Source of the DNA: Seramator thermalis
Lineage (GTDB): Bacteria; Bacteroidota; Bacteroidia; Bacteroidales; Dysgonomonadaceae
Assembly (NCBI RefSeq): GCF_004138125.1
Contig: NZ_RXHS01000001.1
Span: 62,001 to 126,000 of the forward strand
Direction: 5' to 3'
DNA: 64,000 bases
How positions within the stretch are numbered: position 1 is the stretch's first letter; every line of letters begins with the position of its first letter. The notes beneath the pieces are model-generated. The model did not search any database. It worked only from the letters and a program-made list of their open reading frames with translations, and was not told where the DNA came from. Position numbers and translations under genes: made by a program. Below, one piece after another: positions 24,546-49,887 of this stretch.

Positions 24546-25544
24546 TTATTTTTTCGCAGATTGAATAAAATCTACAGGATAAGTAGCTTTAAATTGAATA
24601 TTACCATCAATGGTTCGAATCCAGGTATCGAATTCTCTTTTATTTTCTTTCAAAACGATGATCCTTGCTCCGTTTACAGGTGCAACATAAGTGGTTTTCC
24701 ATCCCGAAAATTGGCCATACGCCAAAGCAATATCGAAATAGTTTACTAAATAATTATTTACATGATCGTGTCCGACAAAAGTTCCCATGATGTCTCCCAT
24801 CTCTTTCATAGCCAAAAACATCCCCGAGTTTAAAGCAGGAGAACATTCATTTTCGTTTTTATCGCCTATTCGTTTGTTTTCGGCATCATCATACGCCAAT
24901 CTGTATTCAGGAAGCGGAATATGGAAAAAAGCCAAAGCCGGCAGCGGTTGGAAATTATTCTGGATAGTATAATGGATGCTTTGCCGTCTGTACCATGAAA
25001 TAATATTGGGACGTATCCAGCCATAACCGTTGACTTTTTGTATCGTAGAATATGCTCCCGAGTCGAAAGTGTAGAGTAACGCTTTAATTTTCATATTATT
25101 GTCGCTTCCATATACGGGAATTACGTTATTTAATACTCCATCCACGTAAGAGCTTGACGCAACATTTATGTTATAAGGATAGGAAGTGATCAAGTTTTCG
25201 AGTTCGGTTCGAGTCGTGCCCTGCTCATCATCGTGATTACCTAATGTTACGGCAAATGGAATTTTTCGATCGATTGCAAAACGAGTAATTGCATCCCACC
25301 CTTCCTTGACGGGTTTTCCCGTCACGATATCGCCGGTAAACACGATTAGATCGGGATTTTCTGCATCAAGAATTCGCTCAATGTTTAACAGCGTTGTATC
25401 TGCTCTGGAATCATTATAAACGTAATGTATATCCGTAAACTGAACTATTTTTAGCAGACCATCTCGGTCGAAAGATATTTTTTGAGCATGAACATGAATG
25501 AATGATGCCAGCAATAAGATGAAAATTCCGAATAATTTATTCAT
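24546..25544 (-). CDS. Secreted calcineurin-like metallophosphoesterase
   Basis: A 332-residue exported phosphoesterase. A signal peptide (MNKLFGIFILLLASFIHVHA) precedes the metallophosphatase core: FTDIHYVYNDSRAD, VFTGDIVTG, TLGNHDDEQG, FFHIPLPEY and VGHDHVNNYL supply the Asp, Asn and His ligands of the di-metal site. Family relatives in plants and Bacteroidota resemble purple acid phosphatase 29-type enzymes, but the substrate is unknown. It lies 21 bp downstream of prs in the same direction. Confidence 0.92.
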   Translation of the reverse strand: MNKLFGIFILLLASFIHVHAQKISFDRDGLLKIVQFTDIHYVYNDSRADTTLLNIERILDAENPDLIVFTGDIVTGKPVKEGWDAITRFAIDRKIPFAVTLGNHDDEQGTTRTELENLITSYPYNINVASSSYVDGVLNNVIPVYGSDNNMKIKALLYTFDSGAYSTIQKVNGYGWIRPNIISWYRRQSIHYTIQNNFQPLPALAFFHIPLPEYRLAYDDAENKRIGDKNENECSPALNSGMFLAMKEMGDIMGTFVGHDHVNNYLVNYFDIALAYGQFSGWKTTYVAPVNGARIIVLKENKREFDTWIRTIDGNIQFKATYPVDFIQSAKK

Positions 25545-25565
25545 GACGGAATATCCGAATAGTTT

Positions 25566-26501
25566 TCACACTACATATAAAGAGCTTATAGATTCGTTGT
25601 TGCATACCCGTTGTATGGATTCGGCAAACATATCTGCAACCGAAAGAATCTTAACTTTTTCCGATTTTTTCGAATATGGAATACTGTCGGTAAAGATAAT
25701 TTCTGTCAACTGGGATTGATCTACACGCAGGGAAGCCGGATCGGACATCACGGCGTGACTTGCTATTGCTCTCACCGAACGCGCACCTTTTTCAATCATC
25801 AGATTTGCAGCTTTGGTGATAGTTCCGGCGGTATCTACTATATCATCCACCAAAAGGATATCCATTCCTTCAACCTCGCCAATCACTTGCATATCCGAAA
25901 TTTCGTTGGCTTTTTTACGGAGTTTGTAGCAAATCACCATCGGGCAACCCAAAAATTTGGCATAAGCACTTGCTCGCTTGGTTCCTCCTACATCCGGCGT
26001 GGCTATAACCAAATTATCCAAGTCGAGAGACTTTACATATTCTAAAAACACGCCTGAAGCATAGAGATGGTCAACCGGAACATTAAAAAATCCCTGAATT
26101 TGATCGGCATGCAAATCCATTGTAATCAATCGGCTGATTCCCGCAACACTAAGCACATCGGCAATAAGTTTTGCTCCTATGCTGACACGAGGCTTATCTT
26201 TACGATCTTGACGCGCCCACCCAAAATAAGGGATGACAGCCACGATAGATTTTGCCGAAGCTCGCTTTGCGGCGTCAATCATTAGCAAAAGTTCCATCAA
26301 ATTGTCTGAATTAGGAAATGTCGATTGAATAAGAAAAACTTGTTTTCCCCGAATCGATTCTTCGTAAGAAACTGCAAATTCACCATCGGCAAAATGCTCG
26401 ATGATCATGTTTCCAAGTGGACAACCTAAGCTGTTGCAAACTTTTTCGGCAAAATAGCGGGATTTGGTTCCCGAAAAAATTTTAAATGGTCTTTCTTGCA
26501 T
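25566..26501 (-). CDS. prs: Ribose-phosphate pyrophosphokinase (PRPP synthetase)
   Basis: The 311-residue product makes PRPP from ribose-5-phosphate and ATP, feeding purine, pyrimidine, NAD, His and Trp synthesis. Seen are the ATP-binding flexible loop YFGWARQDRKDKPRVSIGAK, the metal-binding MDLHADQIQGFF and the PRPP loop ILLVDDIVDTAGTITKAA. Full length class I enzyme. PRPP users hisIE, purH and pncB are elsewhere in the window. Confidence 0.97.
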   Translation of the reverse strand: MQERPFKIFSGTKSRYFAEKVCNSLGCPLGNMIIEHFADGEFAVSYEESIRGKQVFLIQSTFPNSDNLMELLLMIDAAKRASAKSIVAVIPYFGWARQDRKDKPRVSIGAKLIADVLSVAGISRLITMDLHADQIQGFFNVPVDHLYASGVFLEYVKSLDLDNLVIATPDVGGTKRASAYAKFLGCPMVICYKLRKKANEISDMQVIGEVEGMDILLVDDIVDTAGTITKAANLMIEKGARSVRAIASHAVMSDPASLRVDQSQLTEIIFTDSIPYSKKSEKVKILSVADMFAESIQRVCNNESISSLYVV

Positions 26502-26572
26502 GTCTTTGTTATTGATAAAAACAGATTTTCTCTTTAGTGAGATTGTTTTATGGATGAAATGGTTTTCGCATG

Positions 26573-26580
26573 CAAAAGTA
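26573..26580 (-). promoter_or_regulatory. Putative -7 box of the prs promoter
   Basis: Minus-strand TACTTTTG, matching TAnnTTTG, about 70 bp upstream of the prs start codon; a weak TTTG lies 13 bp further upstream. Confidence 0.4.
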
Positions 26581-26606
26581 CAAAAAGTAAATTCAAAAGA
26601 AACTGT

Positions 26607-28301
26607 TTACAAAAAAGAAATTTTATAGATTTCGCCATCGTTGGCAGCAAGCCTCACTTTGAATGGTGAAAAGTAGTTGAAAACAAATTTATCTTCATTG
26701 TCGGCCAATAAGGGCATGGCTTGGCAATTTCCGGGAATGTCAAATCCAAAAAAACGAAATACGTCATCGGGCGTATATACTGTAATTGTTTCATCCTTCT
26801 CAGAAAAATTGGCCACAACAATCAAAAAATCTTTACCGTCGCTTCGCGCAAATGCATATTGTTTCATCGAATTAAAACCCTGATTTTCGTAATTAGCCGA
26901 CATCAGATCGTAGAACAAACCTTCCGAAAGAGCGTTTTGTTGATTACATAACACTACGAGTTTTTTATAAAAAGATTGAAGTTCGATTTCCTCTTCAGTA
27001 AGTAATTCGCTGTTCCACTTTCCATTATTGTTCCACCTTCTGATTTTTTCGATTGACCAATAATCATAAATGCTTGTACGTCCGTTCCGTCCGCTAAAAC
27101 CCTCTTCATCCATTCCGGGTTCTCCCAATTCCTGACCAAAATATACCATTACGGGATTCACATTGATGCATGATGTAACAATCATGGCCGCTTTCCCTTT
27201 TTTGCCGTCCTTCAAAAAGTAATCGGAAGCGATGCGTTGCTCATCATGATTTTCCATGAAATTGATCATGTGATGTTGAATATCTCCGACTTGATTGAGG
27301 GCAAAAGTGATATCGGATGCGGGTCGATATCCACAGGCAACATCCCGAAGCACATCGTACAGTCCGACTTTGTCATACAGGTAGTCGAAAATATTATCCG
27401 ACAAATAGTTGCGATATTCCGAAGGATTATAGGTCTCGGCAATAAAAATGATATTGAAATATTTGGATTTTATTTGAGGAATGACCCATTTCCAAAATTG
27501 CAGCGGTACCATTTCGGCCATGTCACATCTGAATCCGTCCACTTTTCTCGAAGCCCAAAACAAAAGCACGTCCCGCATCTTTATCCAAGTATCGGGAATG
27601 GGAGAAAAATATGATGCTCGTCCATTCAAGTAATCGATGCCATAATTGAGTTTCACGGTTTCATACCAGTCGTAAAGCGAAGGCGAATTTGTAAAACAAT
27701 CGTTTCCGGTAGCTTTTGCGGGAAATTCGGTATAAGTGATCCGTTGATTTTTTCTCTTAATCCGGCTAAGATCTAAGGCTTGATCGGGGATATAATAAAA
27801 ATTGTTTTGGGGATGAAATGCCAAACTTTTATCGTCGTCAGCACCAAAATCGGCAATTGAGGGTGGTTTTGCGATTGATTGATAATTTCTTGCCAAATGA
27901 TTCGGAACGAAATCGATAATAACTTTTAGGCCGGCTTTATGCGTCCGATTTATTAAACTATCAAATTCATCGAGCCTTTTATCGATATCTACCGATAAGT
28001 CGGGACCTACATCATAATAATCTCTTACGGCGTAGGGTGAACCGGCTTTGCCTTTCACAATTTCGGGATATTGATGCGGAATGCCGTATTTTTCGTAATT
28101 AGTGGCCGTGGAATGTGCTAAAACTCCTATATACCAAATATGTGTATATCCGAAATCGGAAAGTTTTTTCAATACATTATCACTGATGTCGTTGAATTTT
28201 CCCGAACCATTTTCCCAAATCTCTCCGTTTTTTAGGTTCGTGTTTATTTTATTTCCAAAAAGACGTGTAAAGATTTGATATACAAAGATTTTTTTTTTCA
28301 T
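26607..28301 (-). CDS. Alpha-amylase family glycoside hydrolase (GH13)
   Basis: This 564-residue protein is a GH13 barrel enzyme without a signal peptide, so probably cytoplasmic. Conserved regions are VIIDFVPNHLARNY (region I), VDGFRCDMAEMVP with the nucleophile Asp, IIFIAETYNPSEYRNYL with the acid/base Glu and INFMENHDEQRIASD with the third Asp. A C-terminal beta domain follows (about 475-564). Substrate (maltodextrin, glycogen) is inferred. The ATG at 28301 overlaps the patatin stop as ATGA, so the pair is translationally coupled. Confidence 0.92.
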   Translation of the reverse strand: MKKKIFVYQIFTRLFGNKINTNLKNGEIWENGSGKFNDISDNVLKKLSDFGYTHIWYIGVLAHSTATNYEKYGIPHQYPEIVKGKAGSPYAVRDYYDVGPDLSVDIDKRLDEFDSLINRTHKAGLKVIIDFVPNHLARNYQSIAKPPSIADFGADDDKSLAFHPQNNFYYIPDQALDLSRIKRKNQRITYTEFPAKATGNDCFTNSPSLYDWYETVKLNYGIDYLNGRASYFSPIPDTWIKMRDVLLFWASRKVDGFRCDMAEMVPLQFWKWVIPQIKSKYFNIIFIAETYNPSEYRNYLSDNIFDYLYDKVGLYDVLRDVACGYRPASDITFALNQVGDIQHHMINFMENHDEQRIASDYFLKDGKKGKAAMIVTSCINVNPVMVYFGQELGEPGMDEEGFSGRNGRTSIYDYWSIEKIRRWNNNGKWNSELLTEEEIELQSFYKKLVVLCNQQNALSEGLFYDLMSANYENQGFNSMKQYAFARSDGKDFLIVVANFSEKDETITVYTPDDVFRFFGFDIPGNCQAMPLLADNEDKFVFNYFSPFKVRLAANDGEIYKISFL

Positions 28302-29158
28302 AATGGTGAGGTTTGATTTATCCATCGATTTATTTTCGATTCCAATTCTTTATGACGAAGACAACGACGGATAATATGTTTGCTTTTGGGCTCATCCATT
28401 TTTGATGACGCCGTTTCATAGCCGATTTTTTTAATTTCCTTTAAATTATTGATATCGAATATTGTAAATTTGTCGAGCCCTTCCATTTCGATCAAAATAT
28501 CGCACAATTTTTTATCGATCAATGTATTTGAGTTTGACATCAAGTTGAATGTTCGTTCCACCATTTTTTTTATTCCGGCATCTTCGCAATAAGGCATTAA
28601 AGAATTGACGTTGATGGCTATTACATATTTGCATTGTTCTCTGATCACCGACACCGGAAGATTTTTGAATAGTCCGCCATCAACATATGGAATTCCATCG
28701 ATATATTGTGGCTGAAAAAATACCGGAATTGAGCAAGAAGCAATAACTGCCTCAATCAATTGATTGCCTTGATAAAAACTCACCGTGCGGGCACGCTTCC
28801 AATCTGTGACAACGCTTATAAACGGAATTTGGAGATCTTCGAAGGTTCTGGCTCTTAAATTTTTCTTTAAAAAATGAAATAGCCCCGAGGTCTTGAAAAA
28901 ACCCTGTTTGGGCATAGAAAAACCTATAAATTCGCGAAACTCTTTACCTGTAAAAAGATCGGCTATTTCATCGGGGTGAAAGCCGTCTGCATAAAATACT
29001 CCGGCCAAAGCACCGGCACTCGTTCCGGCAATTACATGTGGTTTTAATCCTTTCGATTCGAGAACGTTCAACGCACCTAAATGAGCAAATCCTTTTGCTC
29101 CTCCACCACTCAATGCGTATCCGGTGTGAAATTTGTAATTCGTTCCAAATAATGACAT
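28298..29158 (-). CDS. Patatin-like phospholipase
   Basis: A 286-residue serine hydrolase with the patatin Ser-Asp dyad. The oxyanion glycine loop is SGGGAKGFAHLGAL, the nucleophile elbow is AGTSAGALAG and the Asp is in YVDGGLFKNLP. There is no signal peptide or transmembrane barrel, so it is a cytosolic or membrane-associated lipid acyl hydrolase. The physiological lipid is unknown. It is upstream of and overlaps the amylase gene by 4 bp. The displaced folK 3' fragment begins about 115 bp upstream. Confidence 0.92.
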   Translation of the reverse strand: MSLFGTNYKFHTGYALSGGGAKGFAHLGALNVLESKGLKPHVIAGTSAGALAGVFYADGFHPDEIADLFTGKEFREFIGFSMPKQGFFKTSGLFHFLKKNLRARTFEDLQIPFISVVTDWKRARTVSFYQGNQLIEAVIASCSIPVFFQPQYIDGIPYVDGGLFKNLPVSVIREQCKYVIAINVNSLMPYCEDAGIKKMVERTFNLMSNSNTLIDKKLCDILIEMEGLDKFTIFDINNLKEIKKIGYETASSKMDEPKSKHIIRRCLRHKELESKINRWINQTSPL

Positions 29159-29273
29159 ATTCTATAAATTTGAATACGAATACAAAAATGCAACTTTTTT
29201 TCGAATTTATCAATCGAATTCATTTTCAGTTGCGGTATGCAAAACAACAAAGAATCTCGAATAAAGAATTATG

Positions 29274-29586
29274 TTTTACATTGTATATTAAGCTCGTTCA
29301 AAAGTTGGAGAATAGTTTTATGCAGAATTGGGTGAATGTAATCGGGAGCAATTTCGGCTAATGGCTCCAAAACAAATCTTCGCGTATGCAGAAGTGGATG
29401 AGGAATAGTTAATTCGGGAGTATCGATTACAAGATCATCGGCAAGCAATATGTCGATATCGATAATGCGATCGGAATATATTCCATTATTGCTTTTGGAA
29501 GTTCTGCCAATCAGTTTTTCTATAAATTGCGTCTCTAAGAATGCTGAATATACATCCATACTACATTCCACTGTACCTGACGCCAT
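29274..29586 (-). pseudogene. folK: Displaced 3' fragment of folK (direct repeat, left copy)
   Basis: Bases 29274-29572 repeat 34527-34825 with no gaps and about nine mismatches by eye. The fragment keeps the folK frame and encodes roughly the last 100 residues, including SDRIIDIDILLADDLV and IPHPLLHTRRFVLEPLAEI, but lacks the N-terminal third needed for catalysis. A fortuitous ATG at 29586 makes a 105-codon frame starting MASGTVECS. Four amino-acid differences from the intact gene are visible in the shared part. I infer it is the original chromosomal end of folK, displaced by insertion of the segment to its right. Confidence 0.92.
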
Positions 29587-29588
29587 CG

Positions 29589-29733
29589 ATTTTTGACTGG
29601 TTTAGCCACTTACCTGGGGATATTCGCATCGAAAAAAGAAAATACCTGCATTTACATCCCCATCACATCGATGATTGTGATCAGCATCGTTCTTACGCTC
29701 ATCGTCAATTTAATCCGATATTTCAAGCCCTGA
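29589..29733 (+). pseudogene. DUF2905 family fragment, 5'-truncated and frameshifted
   Basis: Right at the folK-fragment junction the plus strand encodes FDWFSHLPGDIRIEKRK, the core motif of small DUF2905 membrane proteins. The frame then shifts and continues as IYIPITSMIVISIVLTLIVN to a TGA at 29731, the family's C-terminal membrane helix. The N-terminal helix is missing at the junction. It is therefore the cut-off end of a gene whose start lay beyond the rearrangement point. The 29734-29809 gap holds nothing else. Confidence 0.7.
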
Positions 29734-29809
29734 TCCTATTCCCAACTCCGCACAGGCGAAAAATCTTGTCATTCTCCCAATCCCCAACCTCCAACCTCTC
29801 AAAACATCA

Positions 29810-30844
29810 CTATCTCGACCTTACTTCGCGCCGCATAAATAAATAATACCCTAATCCAAAAAGCAAAATGGAGCCAGCAACTAATCCCGTAACTTGTGGC
29901 CATACCATTAGCAAGCTCTGACCGATAGGAAGCGGCGTGGGAAGAGCTCCTTCGATCTGCTCCATCGTTAATGCTCCCAAACTTCGTACCGATGGCATGA
30001 GCAGCGTGATGGTGGCTTCACTGAACAGCTGACTCGGATTAAACCGCATCAATCCCAGCACAAAATTCTGAAACTCTACCACCTGCCCTTCTGTCAACAT
30101 ACCTTTAGGTGCCATCGCTTTAGCCAGCAAATCGACGATCATGTTGTAAAAAATGCTGAAGAAAAGCCAAATGGCAATACCCGATAAGGCCGAGGTTGCT
30201 GCCTGTCGAAACACCACCGAAAACAAAATGGATAAATTCAGCCAGAAAGCTACGTAAATGATACTAACCAGGATAAAAAAAATAAGTCGTGCCAATTCAT
30301 CTCCCGTAGGAGGAATTCCCAAGGCAATCAATCCCGATCCAAGCACCAACAGCCCCAAGGTCAAAAACAAGGAACTGATCACGATGAGATCGGCAACAAA
30401 TTTGGCATTGATGACATAATCGCGATAGATAGGTTGGCTCAATAGCCGACTTAGTGTACCCCGGTTTTGTTCCGAATTAATGGCATCGAAACCGAGACTT
30501 ATCCCTAACAACGGCCCCAAGAAACTAATAAAAACCGTAAACGGGGGTAAGGTGCCATCGGATAGGGTGAATAGATTCAGGAAAAAGAAAGCATCTTCAG
30601 CACTGCCCGATTGTTTGCTGAACTGAGCGAGTGCCGTGTATAACGACCCCAAACAGGTCAGGGCTATGAGAACACCCATGATGATAAATCGCCAACTACG
30701 TACTTGATCCGAAATCTCCTTGCCCACCATAACCCAAAAAGGATGTTTGATTTTGGTTTTATTGGAAGATTCTGACGAACGTTCAGTTACGGCATCCTGA
30801 AACGGCCTTCTATTGCGAAAATTCTCTTGTAATTTCTTATTCAT
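29810..30844 (-). CDS. ABC-2 type transporter permease
   Basis: A 344-residue integral membrane subunit with an N-terminal cytoplasmic segment and about six membrane helices. The ABC-2 mark is FDAINSEQNRGTLSRLLSQP with the preceding LGPLLGISLG. It should pair with the adjacent ATPase to export an unknown substrate. ATG 30844 is preceded by a strong AAGGAGG Shine-Dalgarno sequence 11 nt upstream, inside the ATPase 3' end (8-bp gene overlap). A TTG at 30865 is a less likely start. Such ribosome sites are uncommon in this window and point to foreign origin. Confidence 0.88.
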   Translation of the reverse strand: MNKKLQENFRNRRPFQDAVTERSSESSNKTKIKHPFWVMVGKEISDQVRSWRFIIMGVLIALTCLGSLYTALAQFSKQSGSAEDAFFFLNLFTLSDGTLPPFTVFISFLGPLLGISLGFDAINSEQNRGTLSRLLSQPIYRDYVINAKFVADLIVISSLFLTLGLLVLGSGLIALGIPPTGDELARLIFFILVSIIYVAFWLNLSILFSVVFRQAATSALSGIAIWLFFSIFYNMIVDLLAKAMAPKGMLTEGQVVEFQNFVLGLMRFNPSQLFSEATITLLMPSVRSLGALTMEQIEGALPTPLPIGQSLLMVWPQVTGLVAGSILLFGLGYYLFMRREVRSR

Positions 30845-31595
30845 GATGTTCCGTTCCTCCTTCAAAAAAAGAATTATAGATGTCTTCTAATCCATGATCG
30901 GCAGTGCCAAACAACTGTTGGGAAAGAGCGGGGATATTGCCCAAAGCTCGTATTTTTCCTTCGACAAAAATGCCGATCCGATCACAAACCTGTTCTACCT
31001 GATGCAAGTTATGCGATGAAAATAATACAGTTAGTCCGTGTTCATCACGCAATTCGAGAATCAAATCGAGAAAAGACCTGACCCCCTGAGGATCGATACC
31101 GGACGTTGGCTCATCCAAAATAATGACTTCGGGATTTTTAATCAACACATCGGCCAATCCCAGTCGTTGACGCATGCCTTTCGAGTACTTACCGGTTTTC
31201 TTGCCGTCTACATTTTCCAAACCTACCCGTTGAAGTAAAACTTTCGCTTTTTCGGCAGCTTCTGTTTCAGGAATACAGTTCAACATGGCCGTATAAACCA
31301 AATTCTCCAATCCGGTACGATCGTCATAAAAACCTACATCTTCCGGCAGATATCCTACACGTCTTTTAACATCGATGGGATTGCGTGAAGGATTAATGCC
31401 GCATACTCGGGCCCATCCTTCGGTAGGTTCGGTCAATCCGAGCATCATCAGAATGGTTGTCGATTTGCCCGCACCATTAGGGCCTAATAGACCAAATATT
31501 TCTCCTTTTTCAACCGTCAAATCGATGTGATCGACCGCTGTAAACGATCGATATTTTTTGGTCAGGTTAACCAATTCGATGATTGTTTCGGCCAT
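30837..31595 (-). CDS. ABC transporter ATP-binding protein
   Basis: This 252-residue ATPase has Walker A LLGPNGAGKSTTILMMLGL, Q-loop YLPEDVGFYDD, signature YSKGMRQRLGLADVLI, Walker B NPEVIILDEPTSGIDP and the switch His in LFSSHNLHQVEQ. It resembles the NosF/CcmA-type group that powers ABC-2 permeases. A GGGAGGAG Shine-Dalgarno sequence lies 7 nt before the ATG. Gap to the NEW3 gene is 3 bp and it overlaps the permease gene, so the three form one operon. Confidence 0.93.
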   Translation of the reverse strand: MAETIIELVNLTKKYRSFTAVDHIDLTVEKGEIFGLLGPNGAGKSTTILMMLGLTEPTEGWARVCGINPSRNPIDVKRRVGYLPEDVGFYDDRTGLENLVYTAMLNCIPETEAAEKAKVLLQRVGLENVDGKKTGKYSKGMRQRLGLADVLIKNPEVIILDEPTSGIDPQGVRSFLDLILELRDEHGLTVLFSSHNLHQVEQVCDRIGIFVEGKIRALGNIPALSQQLFGTADHGLEDIYNSFFEGGTEHHE

Positions 31596-31598
31596 AAT

Positions 31599-32750
31599 CT
31601 ATCTCCTCCCGTATTTGCGAAACAGATAAACAACCCCGCCTAATGCTGCTAAAATTACCAATAATCCTACCCATCCCCAAATCATCGATGTTTTTACCAT
31701 AACCCGAAAAGAAATTTGGGAATTTGCTTCCGGCGTTCTGGCTTCCATTTCGATGACATAATCGCCCGGAATGGCTTTCTTGTCGGCCTGGATGGTAGCA
31801 GAAACGGTAGTTTGACTACCAGCAGTTAGTTTGTCAATTTTTGATGGTTCAAAGGTTATTTGCCATTTGGAAGGTGCAGTTGATTTCATCTCGATATCGG
31901 TCAGGTCGGCGGAGCCGGCGTTACGAACTACCAATTGAATTTTTTCTTTCTTCCCTGCAGTTAGTTTTGCACTAAGCAGGCCTGTAGAAGTGGTCAACGA
32001 TATTTCATAATTGCCGGTAACAACGGCTTCCAGTTCCATCGATGCGGAAGTGGAACCCGTGACAGCTCTCACCGGAATTTTATAGGTGCCTGCATTTACT
32101 TCCTTGGGAGGTTTAACTTCTATTGTAATCTCTTTAGTGCTATTAGGTTCTATTTCTACCGAAGTAACTGCATTGTAATCTGCTTTAAAGGTAACGGTCC
32201 ATCCTCGAGGTGCATAACCCATTAAGGCATAGAGTTGCTTATCAGCGGTTCCATTTTTCAAGGTTGCTCTATAGGTAAAAGTTGCGTTGGCATTTCCCTG
32301 CATGTTAGGCTGATCAGCTGTAAATTCCGTATCGCTCGATCCCATCTCGGTTACATTAACCGTAAGTGCTAATGACGCCGAATCACCGGCTATTACCCGA
32401 AAAGTATAGGCCCCTTTGTTGACTTGAAAAGGAACTTCTACTCGCAACGATAGGGTCTTTTTCTCATCCGGAAGCACAGCAACTCTGCTAACCGTATAGG
32501 CTCCTCCTTTTAAACTGTAAGTCCACGAGCGGGGAATACCCGTTACTCTGATGTCTCCATCGAATATCTCATCGCTCTCGTTAATTACGTCGATAGAATA
32601 TTCAATGGCTTCTCCGGGCGAAACCGAAATTTTTGTGAAAGGGGTATACAATGTTACTCTCTCCGCGGCAAAAACTTGTGCTGCATTGAATACTAAGAGA
32701 CACAGCAAAACAAAAACTTGCAAATGAATAAGTTTCTCTCGTACTGACAT
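31599..32750 (-). CDS. Secreted, membrane-anchored NEW3-domain protein
   Basis: A 383-residue protein with an N-terminal signal peptide (about 1-28), three tandem Ig-like NEW3 (alpha-galactosidase-associated) repeats of about 100 residues each, and a C-terminal membrane helix (WGWVGLLVILAALGGVVYLF) with a basic end. Each repeat has the phrase type EIEPNSTKEITIEVKPPKEV or DKLTAGSQTTVSATIQADKK. It is COG1470-like. Proteins of this type sit beside ABC-2 transporters in many bacteria and archaea, probably as the extracytoplasmic partner. The start has a GGAGGA site 6 nt upstream. First gene of the operon. Confidence 0.88.
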   Translation of the reverse strand: MSVREKLIHLQVFVLLCLLVFNAAQVFAAERVTLYTPFTKISVSPGEAIEYSIDVINESDEIFDGDIRVTGIPRSWTYSLKGGAYTVSRVAVLPDEKKTLSLRVEVPFQVNKGAYTFRVIAGDSASLALTVNVTEMGSSDTEFTADQPNMQGNANATFTYRATLKNGTADKQLYALMGYAPRGWTVTFKADYNAVTSVEIEPNSTKEITIEVKPPKEVNAGTYKIPVRAVTGSTSASMELEAVVTGNYEISLTTSTGLLSAKLTAGKKEKIQLVVRNAGSADLTDIEMKSTAPSKWQITFEPSKIDKLTAGSQTTVSATIQADKKAIPGDYVIEMEARTPEANSQISFRVMVKTSMIWGWVGLLVILAALGGVVYLFRKYGRR

Positions 32751-32797
32751 AAAAATTCCTCCAAATTTTTTTAAAATGATGGTACAATTGTCTTATT

Positions 32798-32863
32798 TTA
32801 TTTGTTATGATTCACTCCTAGCGCTTTAGAATGAGCATAGCTTCTAAAACTAACAAATCCCAT
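32798..32863 (-). CDS. Candidate 21-residue leader ORF upstream of the transporter operon
   Basis: A short frame starting MGFVSFRSYAHSKALGVN, with a GGAG site 8 nt before its ATG, lies 48 bp upstream of the NEW3 start. The Shine-Dalgarno-like site is the only support besides position; no homology is recognised. It could be a leader peptide or chance. Confidence 0.2.
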   Translation of the reverse strand: MGFVSFRSYAHSKALGVNHNK

Positions 32864-32998
32864 ATCAATTTCTCCATTCTAGTGATAACGATACCGATCG
32901 TTCTTCACGAATGCATGGTCATCATCACTCAGTTTTTTCTGAATTTTAAATGAGAAGAGAAGAATAATTTTTTGGAAAGAAATGTCAACAGACGTTCT

Positions 32999-33187
32999 TC
33001 ATCCATCGTACATTACCATAGAATGGTCACCTTGGTAATTTCTCTGAAGCTTAAGATAAAACCTTGAAACGAAATCTTTTATAATTTCCATCTTCGATTT
33101 AAAACCGGAAATTTCAACATGACCGGCCTTGGCGAATGTGGCCAACCTTCTCTTGATAAAAAGAAATATAAAGACTAACCTTTTCAT
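32999..33187 (-). CDS. Small hypothetical protein
   Basis: A 62-residue basic frame (begins MKRLVFIFLFIKRRLATFAK) with a hydrophobic start. It is supported only by a Bacteroidota-type promoter box 27 bp upstream and by its co-direction with the transporter operon. Not recognised; may be a chance frame or the relic of a larger gene. Confidence 0.25.
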   Translation of the reverse strand: MKRLVFIFLFIKRRLATFAKAGHVEISGFKSKMEIIKDFVSRFYLKLQRNYQGDHSMVMYDG

Positions 33188-33213
33188 GTGTGATCAACTG
33201 TGAATAACGCCGG

Positions 33214-33241
33214 CAAATATATTTTCCTTTCTTCATTTTGA
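33214..33241 (-). promoter_or_regulatory. Putative promoter reading toward the transporter operon
   Basis: Minus-strand TATATTTG at 33214-33221 matches TAnnTTTG, with a TTG about 16 bp further upstream near 33238. It could drive the small ORF and the three-gene transporter operon. Confidence 0.4.
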
Positions 33242-33281
33242 CAAGGAATATTTTTTAAGAAATCTTAATTGGTAAAAAAAT

Positions 33282-33355
33282 GGTTCTACGTGAAATACCG
33301 TGAGTAATCAGAATTGAGGTTGCCTCATGAATTCCGGATGGCGCATTCATTCTCC
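33282..33355 (+). repeat. Dispersed repeat, copy A
   Basis: About 70 bp beginning GGTTCTACGTGAAATACCG and ending near GGATGGCGCATTCATTCTCC. The same sequence, about 85% identical by eye, occurs inverted at 49823-49887. Inside is a hairpin TGAGG-TTG-CCTCA followed by ATGAATTCCGGATGGCGC. It is not coding and matches no element I can name. Confidence 0.75.
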
Positions 33356-33514
33356 AAGTTTCCTATCTTTCATTTCTTTCCCATTAGACATTGTCTGTCA
33401 AGTTTCACAAGGTTGTTTATGGAAACTCGGACTTTTATTCGATTGCACACATAAAATTTTATTTTAAAAAATGCAGGGATTTTGCTTAAAAACTACAGGT
33501 TTTAATTTAAAAGA

Positions 33515-33553
33515 GCAAAGCGTTGATAAAAAACAAATTACCAAACGCTTTGC
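33515..33553. repeat. 10-bp inverted repeat
   Basis: GCAAAGCGTT (33515-33524) and AACGCTTTGC (33544-33553) form a perfect 10-bp stem with a 19-nt loop in the non-coding stretch left of the transposase relic. Could be a terminator or an old element end. Confidence 0.45.
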
Positions 33554-33581
33554 CAAGTGTAAGATTTCACCTGTCTTTATG

Positions 33582-33712
33582 ACAATAGTTCGGTAAATTT
33601 TACGTAATATTCTGTTAATCAGATGATTATATTCTTTATTTTGTAAGGCGAATTCAGTACTAATAATCAATTAGTTATGAGTAACCTTTCTGAAAAAATA
33701 CCGAACTATTGT
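33582..33712. repeat. 14-bp inverted repeat near the transposase relic
   Basis: ACAATAGTTCGGTA (33582-33595) is the exact reverse complement of TACCGAACTATTGT (33699-33712), 103 bp apart; flanks are partly similar too. The right copy is 36 bp before the transposase start, so these may be ends of one or two insertion-sequence copies, or a long hairpin. Confidence 0.5.
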
Positions 33713-33748
33713 TATGAGTGAAAAATAAAAAAGTAAATCTTACAGAAG

Positions 33749-34182
33749 ATGAAATTACAAAAAGTTTCGCAATCCGTGAGCTCATTTGCAGGAATTTCTT
33801 TCGTTCACGAAGAATTTAACAACTGCGGTTTATTGCAACACATAGACCGACAACCGGGGAAAAGGGACACTTCGGGATACCGGCACGGAGAACTTTTCAG
33901 GACGTGGTTTGAGATATTCTTTTGCGAAGGAGAAGTAGCAGAAGACGTTCACGAGCATTTACGATCGACATCGGAAAGCATACCGGGGAACAGGGTAGCG
34001 GCTCCGGATACGCTGCTTCGGGAACTAAAAGGGTTGGCAACCGAAGATACGATCGTAACCTCTTCAAGCGGGAAAGAGTACCGGTTCAACATCAACGATG
34101 GGAAAAAGTAGAGATCAACTACAAGACATACGAAGTAGCGTCCATTCCCTTTAAACAGTTTTCCGGCTTAGAGTTTTTTTGA
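33749..34182 (+). pseudogene. IS1380-family transposase remnant
   Basis: The first ~120 codons (VSQSVSSFAGISFVHEEFN, FRTWFEIFFCEGEVAEDVHE, PDTLLRELKGLATED, YRFNIND) match the N-terminus of Bacteroidales IS1380 transposases. The frame stops at 34111; one frame over, VEINYKTYEVASIPFKQF, which belongs much later in the protein, follows at once. So most of the catalytic region is deleted, with a frameshift at the joint, and the C-terminus is missing. Intact relatives are about 430 residues. It cannot be active. Confidence 0.82.
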
Positions 34183-34521
34183 CAGAGCTCTCTTTTCTTG
34201 GATTTAATAAGCCGATTCGTAAATTCCGTCCGTTATCTGTCAAAACACGGGTGATTTCGAAAGGGAAAAATTTCAAACGCCGATTCATAAAATCTTTTGT
34301 ATTTTCACTATTTTTATCTTCACACGTTTCCCTATTTTTCTACTTACTGATGGTAGTGGGGAAAATATGAAAGAGTTGGGCTAATTGAAAATTTGGCAAA
34401 GAACTTTCTTTAATTTTCAAAATTAATCAAGTTTTCATTTGGATGTTCTTTTTTCTCATTGTGAAGTGAAGCGTAGCGAAACGAAACGATAAGAAAAAAA
34501 CATCAACAACGTGGTGAAACT
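34183..34521. other. Non-coding stretch between transposase relic and folK
   Basis: About 340 bp, AT-rich, without a supportable gene. It has GAAGCGTAGCGAAACGAAAC near 34468, a short purine-rich repeat, before the folK 3' end. A 63-codon plus-strand frame here is basic and hydrophobic and not recognisable; it may be further transposase debris. Confidence 0.5.
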
Positions 34522-35001
34522 TTACATTTTACATTGTATATTAAGTTCGTTCAAAAGTTGGAGAATAGTTTTATGCAGAATTGGGTGAATGTAATCGGGA
34601 GCAATTTCGGCTAATGGCTCCAAAACAAATTTTCGCGTATGCAGAAGTGGATGAGGAATAGTTAATTCGGGAGTATCGATTACAAGATCATCGGCAAGCA
34701 ATATGTCGATATCAATAATGCGATCGGAATACATTCCATTATTGCTTTTGGAAGTTCTACCAATCAGTTTTTCTATAAGTTGCGTCTCTACGAATGCTGA
34801 ATACACGTCCATACTACATTCCACTTCGCAAGCCGAATTTAAGAAATAATTTGCCGATTCGAATCCTTGCGGATTCGTAATATAAAAAGCAGATCGGGAA
34901 ATAATTTTCCCGATCCGTTTTTCTATTTCAGAGTATGCATTCAGTATATTCTCTTGTTTAAATCCTAAATTTGAACCAAAGCCGAGAAACAGTCTTAGCA
35001 T
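34522..35001 (-). CDS. folK: 2-amino-4-hydroxy-6-hydroxymethyldihydropteridine pyrophosphokinase
   Basis: A complete 159-residue HPPK, which pyrophosphorylates hydroxymethyl-dihydropterin for folate synthesis. Seen are LFLGFGSNLGFKQENI, the substrate loop near YITNPQGFESANYFLN, and the signatures SDRIIDIDILLADDLV and IPHPLLHTRKFVLEPL. It is the last gene of the ftsX-DUF3098-uppP-truB-queA-folK cluster, 11 bp after queA. Its final 299 bp (34527-34825) are the right copy of the direct repeat shared with 29274-29572, so its 3' part may have been replaced by incoming DNA. Confidence 0.95.
   Translation of the reverse strand: MLRLFLGFGSNLGFKQENILNAYSEIEKRIGKIISRSAFYITNPQGFESANYFLNSACEVECSMDVYSAFVETQLIEKLIGRTSKSNNGMYSDRIIDIDILLADDLVIDTPELTIPHPLLHTRKFVLEPLAEIAPDYIHPILHKTILQLLNELNIQCKM
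34527..34825 (-). repeat. Direct repeat, right copy (3' part of intact folK)
   Basis: Same orientation as and 5,253 bp from the left copy at 29274-29572; no insertion or deletion across 299 bp. The homology ends inside folK codon ~59 on one side and 5 bp before the stop on the other. Confidence 0.92.
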
Positions 35002-35012
35002 GAATGCTCAAT

Positions 35013-36065
35013 TTAATCGATTATCAGCATAGCATCACCGTAGGCGCCAAAACGATATTTTTCGTCAATGGCCACCTGATAAGCATTCATCACCAGGTCA
35101 TATCCCCCAAAAGCCGTTGTCATCATTAGCAATGTTGAATATGGCATGTGAAAATTGGTTACAAGCGATTTGGTTAAGACAAATTCGTAAGGTGGAAATA
35201 TAAACTTGTTGGTCCATCCCTCTTTGGGTTTTAAATGTCCTGAGGGAGTAACGGTAGTTTCAAGAGCACGTAGTACCGATGTGCCTACGGCACAAATATT
35301 GCGCCCTTCGTCGAAAGCCTTATTGACGCGCTCGCAAAGTTCCTCCGATATGCTGAATTGTTCCGAATCTATTTTATGCTTGGTCAAATCTTCGACGTCA
35401 ATGTCGCGATAAGCTCCCAATCCGTTATGCAAAGTCAAAAAGCCATAATCGATGCCTTTTATTTCCATCCGCTTCATCAGCTCACGGCTAAAATGAAGGC
35501 CGGCAGCCGGAGCAACTACGGCACCTTCGTTGACAGCAAAGATATTCTGATATCTCAACTCGTCGTCAGAATCAGCGTGTCGGCCCATGTATTCGGGAAT
35601 AGGCATCTCGCCAATCGAAAAAAGCAGTTTTTTGAATTCTTCGTGAGGGCCATCGTATAAGAATCTTAACGTTCTGCCTCGTGAAGTAGTATTATCGATA
35701 ACTTCGGCCACGAGTTCTTCATTTTCACCAAAATAAAGTTTATTGCCGATTCTGATCTTGCGTGCCGGATTTACCAATACATCCCATAGATGTTGGTTTG
35801 GATTTAATTCGCGCAACAGGAAAACTTCGATTTGAGCACCGGTTTTTTCCTTATTACCAAACAATCGAGCCGGAAAAACCTTTGTGTCGTTGAAGATAAA
35901 AAAGTCTTTCTCTTTGAAATATTCCAGAATTTCTTTGAAAATGCGATGTTCGATTTCTCCCGAACGCTTATGAAGCACCATCAATCGGGATTCGTCACGA
36001 TACTTTGCCGGATATTTGGCAATAAGTTCCTCGGGAAGATTAAATTTAAACTGAGAAAGTTTCAT
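35013..36065 (-). CDS. queA: S-adenosylmethionine:tRNA ribosyltransferase-isomerase QueA
   Basis: The 350-residue enzyme moves the ribosyl part of SAM to preQ1 in tRNA, giving epoxyqueuosine. Marks include the N-terminal [62 protein letters not shown] and the C-terminal [20 protein letters not shown]. Full family length. Set between truB and folK. Confidence 0.96.
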
Positions 36066-36095
36066 TATTGTTTATGTTTTCGCTTTATTAATTTG

Positions 36096-36785
36096 TCAGT
36101 GAATATTTCTGTCAAAAAAATCATCCAATTCATCCATCTTTAAGCATTCGTCAAGAGTGATATTTCCAACTCTTGTTCTGATCAATGACGTAAGATGGGC
36201 ACCGGATTGAAGTTCGATGCCAATATCTCTTGCTAATGCCCTGATATAAGTTCCTTTGCTGCAAACTACCCGAATCGTTATATTGGGTAAATTGCAACTC
36301 AACAACTCTATCTTGTCTATAACCAATAACTTGGGTTTTAGTTCAATAGTTTCGTTTTTTCTCGCAAACTCGTAAGCTCTTTTGCCATCGACTTTGCACG
36401 CCGAAAATGATGGAGGAATTTGTTCAATATTTCCGGTAAATTTTATCAGTGCCCGCTCTACTTTTTCTCGCGTCACATGATCAGTCGGGAAAATGGCATC
36501 TATTTCTGTTTCAAGGTCAAACGACGGAGTAGTTGCTCCTAATCGAATAGTAGCAACATATTCTTTGGTTTGAGCCTGAAGAGAATCTATTTCTTTTGTC
36601 TTTTTCCCGGTGCAAACGAGCATCACTCCGGTTGCCAGTGGATCAAGCGTTCCGGCATGTCCGACTTTCAGCTTTTTAATTTTTAATCTACTGCAGAGCT
36701 TTGCCCGCACAACGCGCACCACTCGAAACGAACTCCAATGCAACGGTTTGTCGATATACAAAACTTCGCCTTCTATAAAATCCAT
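36096..36785 (-). CDS. truB: tRNA pseudouridine(55) synthase TruB
   Basis: A 229-residue pseudouridine synthase for U55 of the T loop. The catalytic Asp is in VGHAGTLDPLATGVMLVCTG; IPPSFSACKVDGKRAYEFAR and CSKGTYIRALARDIG are other family blocks. It lacks a separate C-terminal PUA domain, as is common for the short type. Its start abuts the uppP stop (one shared base), typical of a tight operon. Confidence 0.95.
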   Translation of the reverse strand: MDFIEGEVLYIDKPLHWSSFRVVRVVRAKLCSRLKIKKLKVGHAGTLDPLATGVMLVCTGKKTKEIDSLQAQTKEYVATIRLGATTPSFDLETEIDAIFPTDHVTREKVERALIKFTGNIEQIPPSFSACKVDGKRAYEFARKNETIELKPKLLVIDKIELLSCNLPNITIRVVCSKGTYIRALARDIGIELQSGAHLTSLIRTRVGNITLDECLKMDELDDFFDRNIH

Positions 36786-37669
36786 CAGATTGTATTTTGA
36801 ACAATTCCGGTTCCAAGTAAAATCAACAATAAACCGCCTACAATTATTCGATAATATCCAAAAGCCTTAAAGCCATGTTTCGTGAGAAAATCGATAAAAA
36901 ATTTGATGGCAACAAGTGCTACGATAAAAGCAATAATATTACCAACAATCAACATCATCAAATTATTACCAAGAAAGATAGCATTCAAGGGATCTTTCAT
37001 CATTTTGTACAGTGTATATCCGGTTGCGGCAGCCATAGTAGGAACGGCCAGAAAGAAAGAAAATTCCGCTGCATTTTTTCGGTTAAGTTTGGTAGCCATT
37101 CCTCCAACAATTGTTGCCATTGATCGGGAAACTCCGGGAATCATCGCTATACATTGGAAAAGACCTATTTTCAGTGCTCGTTTCCATGACATGTCTTGGT
37201 TATCGTCGGTTTTGCTGAACCATTTATCGACAAAAAGCATGACAATGCCGCCCAACACAAGCATCAGAGCCACGACGAATACATTCTCGAGGAGTGCATC
37301 AATCTGATCTCCGAACAGCAATCCCATAATTCCGGCGGGAACAAGTGCAATGAGAAGTTTCCAGTAAAAATCGAATTTGAATAAAAATCGTTTGGTATAT
37401 GTTATTAATCTTTTAGCGATATTCATTCCCTTAACCGCCTGACCGTCGAAAATTCGGATTTGGTTGAGATGAAAAAAGCGTTTCCAATAAAGAACAACAA
37501 CCGAAAGTATCGCACCAAACTGAATGATAACGGTAAAGGCTTTTACAAAAGGAGTACTCTCTATTCCCAATAACGCTTGGGTAATGATCATGTGTCCGGT
37601 TGAAGACACAGGAAGAAATTCCGTCAGCCCCTCGACTACGGCAATCACTATAGCTTCGATAAAATTCAT
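36785..37669 (-). CDS. uppP: Undecaprenyl-diphosphatase UppP (BacA)
   Basis: This 294-residue integral membrane phosphatase recycles the undecaprenyl pyrophosphate lipid carrier for peptidoglycan and O-antigen. The two signature motifs are [17 protein letters not shown] (residues 14-30) and [15 protein letters not shown] (about 176-190), with about eight membrane helices. It belongs to the ftsX-folK cluster and fits with the mre/mrd cell-wall genes later in the window. Loss of UppP raises bacitracin sensitivity in other bacteria. Confidence 0.96.
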
Positions 37670-37691
37670 TTAGACACTTATAAATTGGGAG

Positions 37692-37952
37692 TCAACGATT
37701 TTGATTGCTATCGTTTGTTTCTTTTTTGTTTTTTGAGGGTATCAGGATACCGAAAATCATGAGGACAAATCCTATCATGCAAACAATGGGTGCAACCTTA
37801 ATCCGTCTTGGACTGAATATATCGGGGTTGAAGCCCTCTTCAACCGTTGTGCCGGGACCCGACATCAGGATAAATCCTATCAAGATGATAACTGCGGCGA
37901 TGCCGATGATAATAAGATTTTTTTTGCCCAATGCAAAATTATTGCTTGACAT
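37692..37952 (-). CDS. DUF3098 family small membrane protein
   Basis: An 86-residue protein with two hydrophobic helices (about 11-31 and 54-74) joined by a loop with FNPDIFSPRRIKVAPIVC. This matches DUF3098, found between ftsX and uppP in Bacteroidota. The role is unknown; constant position beside ftsX suggests a link to cell division or envelope maintenance. Confidence 0.88.
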   Translation of the reverse strand: MSSNNFALGKKNLIIIGIAAVIILIGFILMSGPGTTVEEGFNPDIFSPRRIKVAPIVCMIGFVLMIFGILIPSKNKKETNDSNQNR

Positions 37953-37994
37953 ATATTTTATTTTTAAATTTCAAATTGTCTATTTTTTCAATAT

Positions 37995-38873
37995 CTAAAT
38001 GTAAAACAAATTATCAGTATTCATTTTTAAATATCTGTTTACGGCAAAAATGGCTGCTGTGGATGTAATGATAATACCCAATGCAATAACGATGCCGAAA
38101 ACGATCGACAAATCCGTCCAATTAAGTATCGAACTAAGCGAACCAAATTCTTTATTGAAATAATATAAACCGGCAAAAATTATGGCATTCGCTAAAAGTC
38201 CGGAAAAAATTCCCATCAAAGCATTACTGCGAACGAATGGTTTGCGAATAAACCCATCTGTAGCTCCAACGAGTTTCATCGTGTTGATAATAAATCGTTT
38301 GGAATATATGCTCAAGCGTATTGTATTCCTTATCAGAGCAATAGAAATAAAGAGCAGGATAGCCGAAAGAATTAACAAGATGGTCGTTATTTTCGAAAGG
38401 TTGTTATTGATTAAATCGATAACGTCTTGTTGATACAGCAAATCGGAAATGTTGGTTGTAGCTTTGAGTTTTTTGCTGATTATCTGTAAACTGTCACTAT
38501 TGGCATATTCCGAATTAAGAAAAATTTCGATGCAATCTTGAGCAGGATTGTATCCAAGCAATTCTTCGGGATCTTCTCCCAGATCTTTAATCAATTGTTC
38601 CTTAGCCTCTTCTTTACTGATAAACCTGGAAGATTTAACAAAAGGCATCCCATCCAATTGCTTTCGTAAGTTGTTAATTTGAGCATCGGAAATGTCTTCG
38701 GAAAGCATTACGTTTATGCTCATTTTTTCTTTGACATAATTAGACAAGCCTCTACCCACAAACAAAATCAGAATGGTAAAACCCAACAAAACAAGCACCA
38801 ACGTAATACTGATGGTGGACGTGAGTTTGGCATTCAGGAATCTGGATTTGCTGATACGTTGTTTCTTGCTCAT
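37995..38873 (-). CDS. ftsX: Cell division ABC permease FtsX
   Basis: A 292-residue membrane protein with an N-terminal cytoplasmic stretch, helix 1 (about 20-42), an extracytoplasmic domain (about 45-160) and three C-terminal helices (about 165-285). With FtsE it activates murein hydrolases at the septum. MPFVKSSRFISKEEAKEQL and LVGATDGFIRKPFVRSNALM are FtsX-type. ftsE is not adjacent, as usual in Bacteroidota. First gene of the cluster down to folK. Confidence 0.92.
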   Translation of the reverse strand: MSKKQRISKSRFLNAKLTSTISITLVLVLLGFTILILFVGRGLSNYVKEKMSINVMLSEDISDAQINNLRKQLDGMPFVKSSRFISKEEAKEQLIKDLGEDPEELLGYNPAQDCIEIFLNSEYANSDSLQIISKKLKATTNISDLLYQQDVIDLINNNLSKITTILLILSAILLFISIALIRNTIRLSIYSKRFIINTMKLVGATDGFIRKPFVRSNALMGIFSGLLANAIIFAGLYYFNKEFGSLSSILNWTDLSIVFGIVIALGIIITSTAAIFAVNRYLKMNTDNLFYI

Positions 38874-39028
38874 GAATTTTATTGATTCTTTCTTCCATTG
38901 AGTTTTATTGGAAGAAATCTATTTCACTCAACATTATGCAAAGTAACTAAAAATATTGCACGAAAACCCTATCTAAACAAAAATATTCGAAGGCAGATTT
39001 TCAATTCATCATTACTTCCGCATCAGCG

Positions 39029-40009
39029 TCATCGATGAGTTTTGTTTTTCAAATGCTTGCTTCGAAGAATCGAAGCTACAATCGATATCGCAAGAAGAGA
39101 GGAGATGACAATCAACGACGTGGCATTGGAGATATGAAAATCACTTCTGACGATTTCGCTGTAGTGATTGAGAATCATTTTGGCGCCAATAAAGATCAGA
39201 ATAATGCTCAAGGTATATTTAAGATAATAAAAAATATCCATGATTCCCCGAAGGGCAAAATAAAACGACCGAAGTCCGAGAATGGCAAAGATGTTGGAAG
39301 TATAAACGATAAAGGTATTCGTTGATACGGACAAAACTGCCGGAATGGAATCGACAGCAAAGATGATATCGGTCATTTCAATTACCAGCAAGGCGATGAA
39401 AAAAGGGGTGGCAACCAGTTTTCCGTCGATTTTTTTAAAGAATTTGACTTCGGAAATATCGTCGGTGGTAGGAATAATTTTCATGAAAAACCGGATAATT
39501 TTATTTTTTGAGATATCGACCTTTTCGATTTGCTTTCCCTCCTTTTCACGTACGAGATCGATGGCCATTTTTAGTCCGGTGAATGCCAGAAATGCGCCAA
39601 AAATGTACATGATCCAACCGAACCTTTCGATCAATGCCACTCCTGCAAATATGAATATCGCTCTGAAGAAAATGGCTCCCAATATTCCCCAGAACAGCAC
39701 ATCGTGCTGATATCGCAAATCGATTTTGAATGTGGCAAAAATAATGATGAAAACAAAAAGGTTATCGATGCTCAGCGACTCCTCAATCAGATATGCCGTA
39801 AAAAACTCGATCGCGCTTTCTTTTCCGAAAACAAAATAGATGCCGACATTAAATATCAAGGCGAGCGATATCCAAAACAAACTAAGCCACAAGGCTTTCT
39901 TCACTTTCACCCTCTCGCCTTTTTTGTGAAAGACGAACATGTCTAAACTTAATAGGAACAGGACGAGAATGAGAAAACCGATCCAAAAGGTAGCACTAAC
40001 TTCGATCAT
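39029..40009 (-). CDS. TerC/Alx family integral membrane protein
   Basis: A 326-residue protein with about nine membrane helices and the acidic intramembrane motifs of TerC: AYLIEESLSIDNLFVFIIIF and VIEMTDIIFAVDSIPAVL. Family members are linked to tellurite resistance or to Mn2+ export and metal loading of secreted proteins. The function here is inferred as metal-ion related. No tellurite operon is nearby, so a metal-homeostasis role is more likely. Confidence 0.92.
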   Translation of the reverse strand: MIEVSATFWIGFLILVLFLLSLDMFVFHKKGERVKVKKALWLSLFWISLALIFNVGIYFVFGKESAIEFFTAYLIEESLSIDNLFVFIIIFATFKIDLRYQHDVLFWGILGAIFFRAIFIFAGVALIERFGWIMYIFGAFLAFTGLKMAIDLVREKEGKQIEKVDISKNKIIRFFMKIIPTTDDISEVKFFKKIDGKLVATPFFIALLVIEMTDIIFAVDSIPAVLSVSTNTFIVYTSNIFAILGLRSFYFALRGIMDIFYYLKYTLSIILIFIGAKMILNHYSEIVRSDFHISNATSLIVISSLLAISIVASILRSKHLKNKTHR

Positions 40010-48993: not shown

Positions 48994-49822
48994 ATGTTTT
49001 AGGTAAAGTAATTTTTCTTGTATTTTTCTAATTCCAAAAAACAATCAAAGGTACGGATTTTCGGATAAAATGCAAAAAAGAGACGAAAGTGGTCAATCGA
49101 GTTTAGCATGAAATAAATTTCAACTCTTCCCTCCATTGATTTCATCAGTTTTTAATTTTTTTTGAATTACCGGCAAAAATATGTATTATCGTGCCTATAT
49201 CGGCATCTCTAAAAAGAAAATGTTCATTGCCGGTTACTGAAATCTATTAGATCCGGAGTCGAGGTGGTAGAAGACAGTAACTTACTGTTTTATTAGTTTT
49301 AAATTTGAAAGATTCTCTTTTGGGGGAGTTTGTGTAAGGTTAACAAGAGCGAAGTACGACGCAAATACGACGATGGTATGACTCAAACAATGGATGAAGT
49401 TTGAAGTGGAAAAATTGGAATTACAAGTTGCGAATTACAAATTGCAATTCTGTTTGTCACTTTTTGCCGGTGCAGATATTCATCTATGCCATTACGCAAC
49501 TCGTTCAAGTTTAGCGTCAGCGTAATTTGGACGCAAAACAACAGGCAGTTTGGAAACTGCAGTTATTACCGGCACAAGTTTTGAAAGTTGCGCTATTAAG
49601 AAAGAAAAGAAATGAAGAAGTCGGAAATGAAGAAATATCATAACCCCCGCACTGTCCCTGGTGGTTGTAATGATTTAATTGATAATTGACAATTAAGTGG
49701 AAAGTGAAAGTCGAATGTAATACTTTATGAACTTTATAACTATATGAACTTTCGACTAAATATCCGGTTCACCAGCCTCAAACTTCCAATCACCGGTATA
49801 AGGAGGAGAAACACAAAAAAGA
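48994..49822. other. Gene-free interval with decayed repeats
   Basis: About 830 bp with no convincing gene. It holds a tandem repeat (GAATTACAAGTTGC/GAATTACAAATTGC at 49418-49445), a GCAGTTT-GG-AAACTGC hairpin (49545-49560), ACAGTAACTTACTGT near 49275, and ACCGGCAA/TTGCCGGT near 49168 and 49236. Mixed composition suggests degenerate mobile or repeat DNA. Confidence 0.5.
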
Positions 49823-49887
49823 GTGCGCCATCCGGAATTCGTGAGTCAAACTCAATTTCGATTACTCACGGTATTTCACATAGAACC
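49823..49887 (-). repeat. Dispersed repeat, copy B (inverted relative to copy A)
   Basis: On the minus strand it reads GGTTCTATGTGAAATACCG and so on, like 33282-33355. The internal hairpin is TGAGT-TTG-ACTCA, with the terminal pair T-A where copy A has G-C. The repeat stands about 100 bp upstream of the phosphodiesterase gene. Confidence 0.75.

Follow-up and report, generated by a model that had tools for sequence, protein, structure and literature searches.

The folK gene in the window analysed here (64,000 bp of a draft genome of the Dysgonomonadaceae, positions 62001-126000 of contig C11) is followed by an insert of about 5 kb lying between two direct copies of the folK 3′ end, one belonging to the intact gene and the other to a headless fragment. 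Our favoured explanation, read from the sequence, is that a circle carrying a folK tail would have been integrated at folK through a single homologous (Campbell-type) crossover, to which we give a probability of about 0.52. Homologous integration or a segmental duplication had been proposed in the initial annotation of this DNA; the anatomy of the insert, an empty site in a congener and a parallel case in another genus partly support the former, and it is the crossover and the circle, with the donor and the order of events, that we infer.

The folK repeat and the empty site

Base-by-base alignment showed that 29274-29572 and 34527-34825 run in the same direction and align over 299 bp without gaps at an offset of 5,253, with 290 of the 299 positions identical, which agrees with the about nine mismatches counted initially. 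In the repeat listing of the window, no direct-repeat family was longer than this folK-tail pair (300 nt, 96%). Exact repeats in 25000-40000 reached 84 bases, as against 13-15 in 20 dinucleotide shuffles, so the repeat is not a product of chance. The features that define the site are the following.

34522-35001, minus strand: intact folK (HPPK, 159 amino acids), matching PF01288 and TIGR01498 above cut-off
34527-34825, minus strand: right repeat copy, folK from codon 59 onward (repeat alignment)
29274-29572, minus strand: left repeat copy, a folK fragment lacking its head, next to native downstream DNA (repeat alignment, HPPK profile)
29210-29273, no strand: native folK downstream sequence, as in the congener G001
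28298-29158, minus strand: patatin-like phospholipase gene, the neighbour of folK in G001

The assignment of the intact gene to the right and of the headless fragment to the left was confirmed by these profile matches: the left piece (29269-29586) has an open frame of 105 amino acids that matched HPPK profile positions 53-116 only, and it is without the first 58 codons of folK. The repeat stops short of the end of the intact gene, whose stop codon, together with the second and third bases of its final codon, is inserted sequence; the gene ends in ATG TAA, compared with ACA TAA in the left copy. Judged by this, the intact folK looks chimeric, if nowhere else then at its extreme end, as had been suspected. 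In addition, at three amino-acid positions (L for F, M for I and K for R) the right copy departs from the left, which there equals G001.

The sole congener among the genomes searched, G001 (83% complete), has the order queA-folK-patatin with a single folK and 222 bp from folK to the patatin gene, as expected if folK and patatin are direct neighbours in relatives; the single-copy empty site is thus seen in one congener only. The stretch 29210-29572 of the window, which covers the folK end and the DNA downstream of it, matched positions 9713-10072 of the G001 locus (L023) at 86.8%. Therefore, it is the left copy that adjoins the native downstream DNA, the right copy adjoining the native upstream DNA, and direct copies of target-gene DNA are present at both ends of the insert. 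In 11 of 37 family genomes (G001, G003, G008, G010, G017, G020, G021, G024, G028, G035 and G036) folK lies within 350 bp of patatin; the spacing is 2.3 kb in G011, 2.7 kb in G029 and 46 kb in G022, and in the other genomes of the 37 the spacing is larger, the two genes fall on separate contigs, or one of them was not found. The gene that follows folK also varies within one genus (loci L139, L140 and L142; genomes G084, G085 and G088), where SusD-like, phosphatase-like and other genes were seen by eye.

An insert of like anatomy, in which the folK tail has plainly been replaced, is read from the sequence of G022, a genome of another genus of the family. Here, a 43-kb insert occupies the folK 3′ end (contig C1 of G022, about 2296960-2340460; L021 6959-7072, L035-L037), and the folK pieces form a 91-bp direct repeat of the folK tail with one mismatch. 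Over codons 1-151 the intact folK of G022 and that of its near relative G029 differ at two; from codon 152 to 161 they differ at every one, so that the G022 tail is different but folK-like, while a tail like that of G029 persists in the remnant 43 kb further on. Metabolic and outer-membrane genes were recognised in the insert by eye.

In the order of events that we propose, the incoming fragment would have held the folK 3′ part, then repeat and insertion sequence (IS) debris, and then an ABC-transporter cassette resembling that of Seramator. Circularisation would have brought the cassette end, inside the DUF2905 gene, up to folK codon 59 with a 2-bp overlap. A single homologous crossover in folK would then have taken this circle (or recircularised linear fragment) into the chromosome. 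The crossover would rebuild folK with the incoming tail and would leave the host tail headless beside native downstream DNA. On this model the joint between the cassette and folK codon 59 would be the circularisation scar and the joint between folK and the repeat would already have existed in the donor; therefore, only one illegitimate joint would be needed in the event.

The inserted cassette and its repeat debris

The insert of about 5 kb between the copies encodes a NEW3 protein, an ATPase and an ABC-2 permease, and holds decayed DUF2905 and DUF4919 genes. Towards folK, 33281-34526 consists largely of pieces that are also present elsewhere in the source genome (G000).

29571-29733, plus strand: what remains of a DUF2905 gene, truncated at its 5′ end by the left junction, frameshifted by one base and overlapping the folK copy by 2 bp (CT)
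29810-30844, minus strand: ABC-2 family permease, 344 amino acids, open (PF12679)
30837-31595, minus strand: ABC transporter ATPase, 252 amino acids, open (PF00005)
31599-32750, minus strand: NEW3-domain protein, 383 amino acids, open (PF10633)
33155-33281, minus strand: match to the 5′ end of a DUF4919 gene, the remainder of which is no longer detected
33281-33401, no strand: dispersed repeat that starts where the cassette homology ends, at least 13 other places in the genome (40 of 66 candidates scored)
33396-33511, no strand: dispersed repeat unit, which in contigs C35 and C4 lies near the homologue of 34312-34416
33500-34162, plus strand: remnant of a DDE_Tnp_1_4-like transposase element, related copies in the genome
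33582-33713, no strand: 132-bp insertion inside the transposase remnant, resembling a miniature inverted-repeat transposable element, with 23-nt terminal inverted repeats
34312-34416, no strand: dispersed repeat unit (genome repeat comparison)
34409-34526, no strand: short dispersed repeat abutting folK at 34526/34527, second copy in C12 (96%), part in C18

The segments 29571-32780 and 33155-33281 matched one locus in G003 (Seramator thermalis m5), G017 (UBA4179) and G024 (UBA1410), where the order is DUF2905, permease, ATPase, NEW3, DUF4919, fabD, and the NEW3 protein is 79-80% identical to those of these three genomes. The cassette is single-copy in the source genome; fabD of this genome and of G001 lies elsewhere, with neither DUF4919 nor the cassette alongside, and DUF4919 is retained beside fabD in G004, G011, G021 and G022. 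At four-fold sites the three cassette genes were identical to G003 at 169 of 380 positions (44%) and eight core genes around folK at 219 of 689 (32%; p=5e-5). Because it is closer to G003 than the core genes are, the cassette was probably imported, as a horizontal arrival from a Seramator-like lineage, although composition or rate effects may also account for this closeness. Hence, of the segmental duplication proposed initially, the part that concerns 29573-33281 is unlikely as a plain duplication of host DNA, because a large share of the insert is taken up by a cassette akin to a Seramator locus. By contrast, 33281-34526 is largely made of repeats found elsewhere in the genome.

Two other sources of the cassette were considered and dropped. 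The first was a mobile cassette bounded by repeats that belong to it: at 32 loci no direct repeat was found between the flanks, and the window, used as a positive control, was detected; this test covered 33 of 34 cassette loci (L137, 23% identical, was omitted), one flank (L128) was too short and some flanks were under 3 kb. Among 72,556 plasmid records, 12 matched NEW3, the others listed being at most 35% identical, and plasmid carriage was set aside because the best match, from Bacteroides finegoldii, carries ribosomal, tsaD and proS genes. This record (NZ_OY725888.1, L162) is labelled a plasmid, and with its ribosomal protein, tsaD and proS genes it looks like a chromosomal fragment.

Within the debris, an open reading frame in locus L079 that is related to the transposase remnant matched PF13701 just below the cut-off (34.5 of 34.7 bits), and that of the window itself had no Pfam match. 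The arms of the 132-bp element (33579-33601 and 33693-33715) are 87% identical, and its copies at C32 and C13 are 94-96% identical. The non-coding dispersed repeat of 33281-33401 also occurs in the window at 49818-49887. The repeat at 34409-34526 appears truncated at folK, since its copies in C12 and C18 continue with ATTAT and that of the window does not; it folds no better than shuffles (z=-0.24), and Rfam gave no match in 29200-35100 up to E=1. The C12 copy (L079 5924-6049) adjoins a gene that has relatives between folK and patatin in G011, G029 and G022 (by eye), which may be a coincidence or the trace of an older rearrangement. Two IS copies bounding the insert, as in a composite transposon, were not found: a transposase remnant was found on one side only, and the other junction joins the cut DUF2905 gene to folK.

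Alternatives to the proposed single crossover

Several observations weigh against integration by a single crossover. Neither a circular form nor a donor was found in the 18 other family genomes that bear the cassette, most of them drafts. The NEW3 gene occurs in 19 of 101 family genomes, and in none of the other 18 was the cassette seen beside folK: the two are on different contigs in 15 and more than 0.9 Mb apart in 2, and one (G098) had no folK match. At the nine differences between the repeat copies, G001 agrees with the left copy at six, with the right at two and with neither at one; the 6:2 split of informative sites points to the left copy as the native one, but it is not significant (p=0.29), so that the initial statement that the folK end of relatives fits the left copy better holds in direction and weakly. 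Outgroups were too diverged to settle most of the differing sites. Furthermore, the head of folK shows more similarity to G001 than its tail does (165 of 176 and 263 of 301 positions identical, respectively; p=0.03), so that variation in rate along folK blurs the comparison of the two copies. Finally, much of 33281-34526 occurs elsewhere in the genome and so fits a rearrangement within the genome as well.

The first alternative is an insertion with a long target duplication, in which template switching or end joining at a break in folK would have duplicated 299 bp of target with no circle involved. It predicts the same end anatomy, that is, long target copies at both ends of the insert as compared with the empty site of G001; the overlap at the left junction is only 2 bp, and no clear microhomology was seen at the right one. 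Such insertions are a named pattern in bacteria, as the portions consulted of PMC1643837, PMC3031569 and PMC3154945 indicate. However, a duplication of the target does not by itself explain the different, folK-like tail of the intact folK of G022; the three amino-acid differences of the right copy, where the left one equals G001, also count against it, and we regard this account as unlikely, if arguable.

An integrative element that attached at the 3′ end of folK and later decayed, losing its recombinase, would explain why an insert with a rebuilt gene stands at a gene 3′ end in two genera. That no integrase is visible, as noted at the outset, was borne out: of 10 PF00589 matches in the genome at E <= 0.001, none lies in the window and the nearest on the same contig is at C11:150632, and no recombinase was present among the Pfam matches of seven proteins of the insert, with its main open reading frames, and its edges, the only scan in which serine recombinases were sought. 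The 43-kb insert of G022 had no PF00589 match either. The repeat of 299 bp is far longer than usual attachment-site (att) cores, and the lengths of the two repeats differ (299 and 91 bp). An order-wide search found a folK-tail match in 367 of 393 genomes, with two matches only in the source genome and, doubtfully, in G213. The second piece in G213 (215 bp, 96% identical to the first; L160 1-214 and L161 1589-1803) starts at a contig edge and therefore may reflect a strain mixture; this genome is a draft of about 610 contigs, and its two pieces are on two contigs. Taken with these counts, a decayed element is rather improbable.

A broader proposal, that the folK 3′ end is a recurrent site of recombinase-free acquisition in the family at which circles with a folK tail recombine repeatedly and leave headless tails, appears improbable to us as well. 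The folK alignment matched in 96 of 101 family genomes, in three of which (G002, G086 and G119) only a weak N-terminal paralogue was matched, leaving 93; among the matches listed, second pieces restricted to the C-terminus were present in the source genome and in G022. As controls, 99 of 101 genomes had a match to the queA tail, which in four of them was a weak paralogue alone, and 90 of 101 had one to the fabD tail. Extra pieces of the controls were seen in G080 (queA, 71% identical to its other copy and ending a few bases from the contig end) and in G109 (fabD, at a contig start), and in G122 two contigs each held one of two complementary parts of the fabD tail; the remaining second matches listed were 41-47% identical for queA and 33-42% for fabD. 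The difference between folK and the controls (2/93 and 0/185) gave p=0.11 with the control edge cases counted as none and p=0.60 with G080 and G109 counted as real, and a hot spot is not claimed. A literature search on folK, integration sites and genomic islands returned no title about folK among those it listed.

Less probable still is a rearrangement within the genome, by which its own cassette locus would have moved beside folK through dispersed repeats and the folK tail would have been duplicated on the way. The mosaic of dispersed repeats that makes up most of 33281-34526, the single copy of the cassette, and the fabD loci of this genome and G001 that are without the DUF4919 gene kept in other genomes all suit this route. 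Against it, the cassette is closer to Seramator than the core genes are, no repeat was found at the left junction, and no cassette match was found in G001, though this genome is only 83% complete. An assembly artefact is very improbable: the genome is a draft in 39 contigs and the layout is known from the assembly alone, but nine sites and the different flanks on either side tell the two copies apart, they lie on a contig of 469 kb, and G001 independently has the native junction.

Relation to known routes of gene transfer

Genomic islands at gene 3′ ends rebuild the gene end and leave a remnant on the far side. The folK insert is like them in its rebuilt end and far remnant and differs from them in that no tyrosine recombinase was found and the repeat is longer.

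The closest laboratory likeness is a conjugation experiment in Escherichia coli in which, according to the part of PMC3240628 consulted, 56 of 60 Lac- clones were positive by polymerase chain reaction for a duplication of the lacZ end, 14 of which were sequenced and measured 109-950 bp; these duplications were ascribed there to a single crossover with a circular plasmid missing part of the lacZ end. The two cases share an insert with copies of a gene end in direct orientation on either side (109-950 bp at lacZ, 299 bp here), the lack of a recognised site-specific recombinase and, for folK as proposed, a single homologous crossover with a circle from which part of the gene end was missing. The lacZ case concerns a laboratory plasmid, whereas the folK case is natural, with diverged copies and IS debris, and is read from sequence only. 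Insertion with long target duplication is known, from what is cited in the consulted parts of PMC1643837, PMC3031569 and PMC3154945, for restriction-modification genes in Helicobacter (Nobusato et al. 2000, Gene 259:99); there, too, an insert between long direct target copies is recognised against an empty site, but the cargo here is an ABC-transporter cassette in the Bacteroidales. Homology-facilitated illegitimate recombination, as far as the excerpts of PMC5361080 and PMC3240628 describe it, likewise imports foreign DNA by one homologous anchor and one non-homologous joint; a deletion is expected from it (PMC3240628), whereas the folK case has a duplication.

The folK insert offers a readable natural record of chromosomal genes entering a genome without a visible integrase, in which a conserved gene end would have served as the homologous anchor and been rebuilt, with the old tail remaining as a scar. 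Such tail scars could serve to count recombinase-free acquisitions across genomes. Both the flanking duplication made by a single crossover and the long target duplication are already in print; hence, the folK insert represents a known route of gene transfer, not a new system, and is a new and well-delimited case of it in the Bacteroidales.

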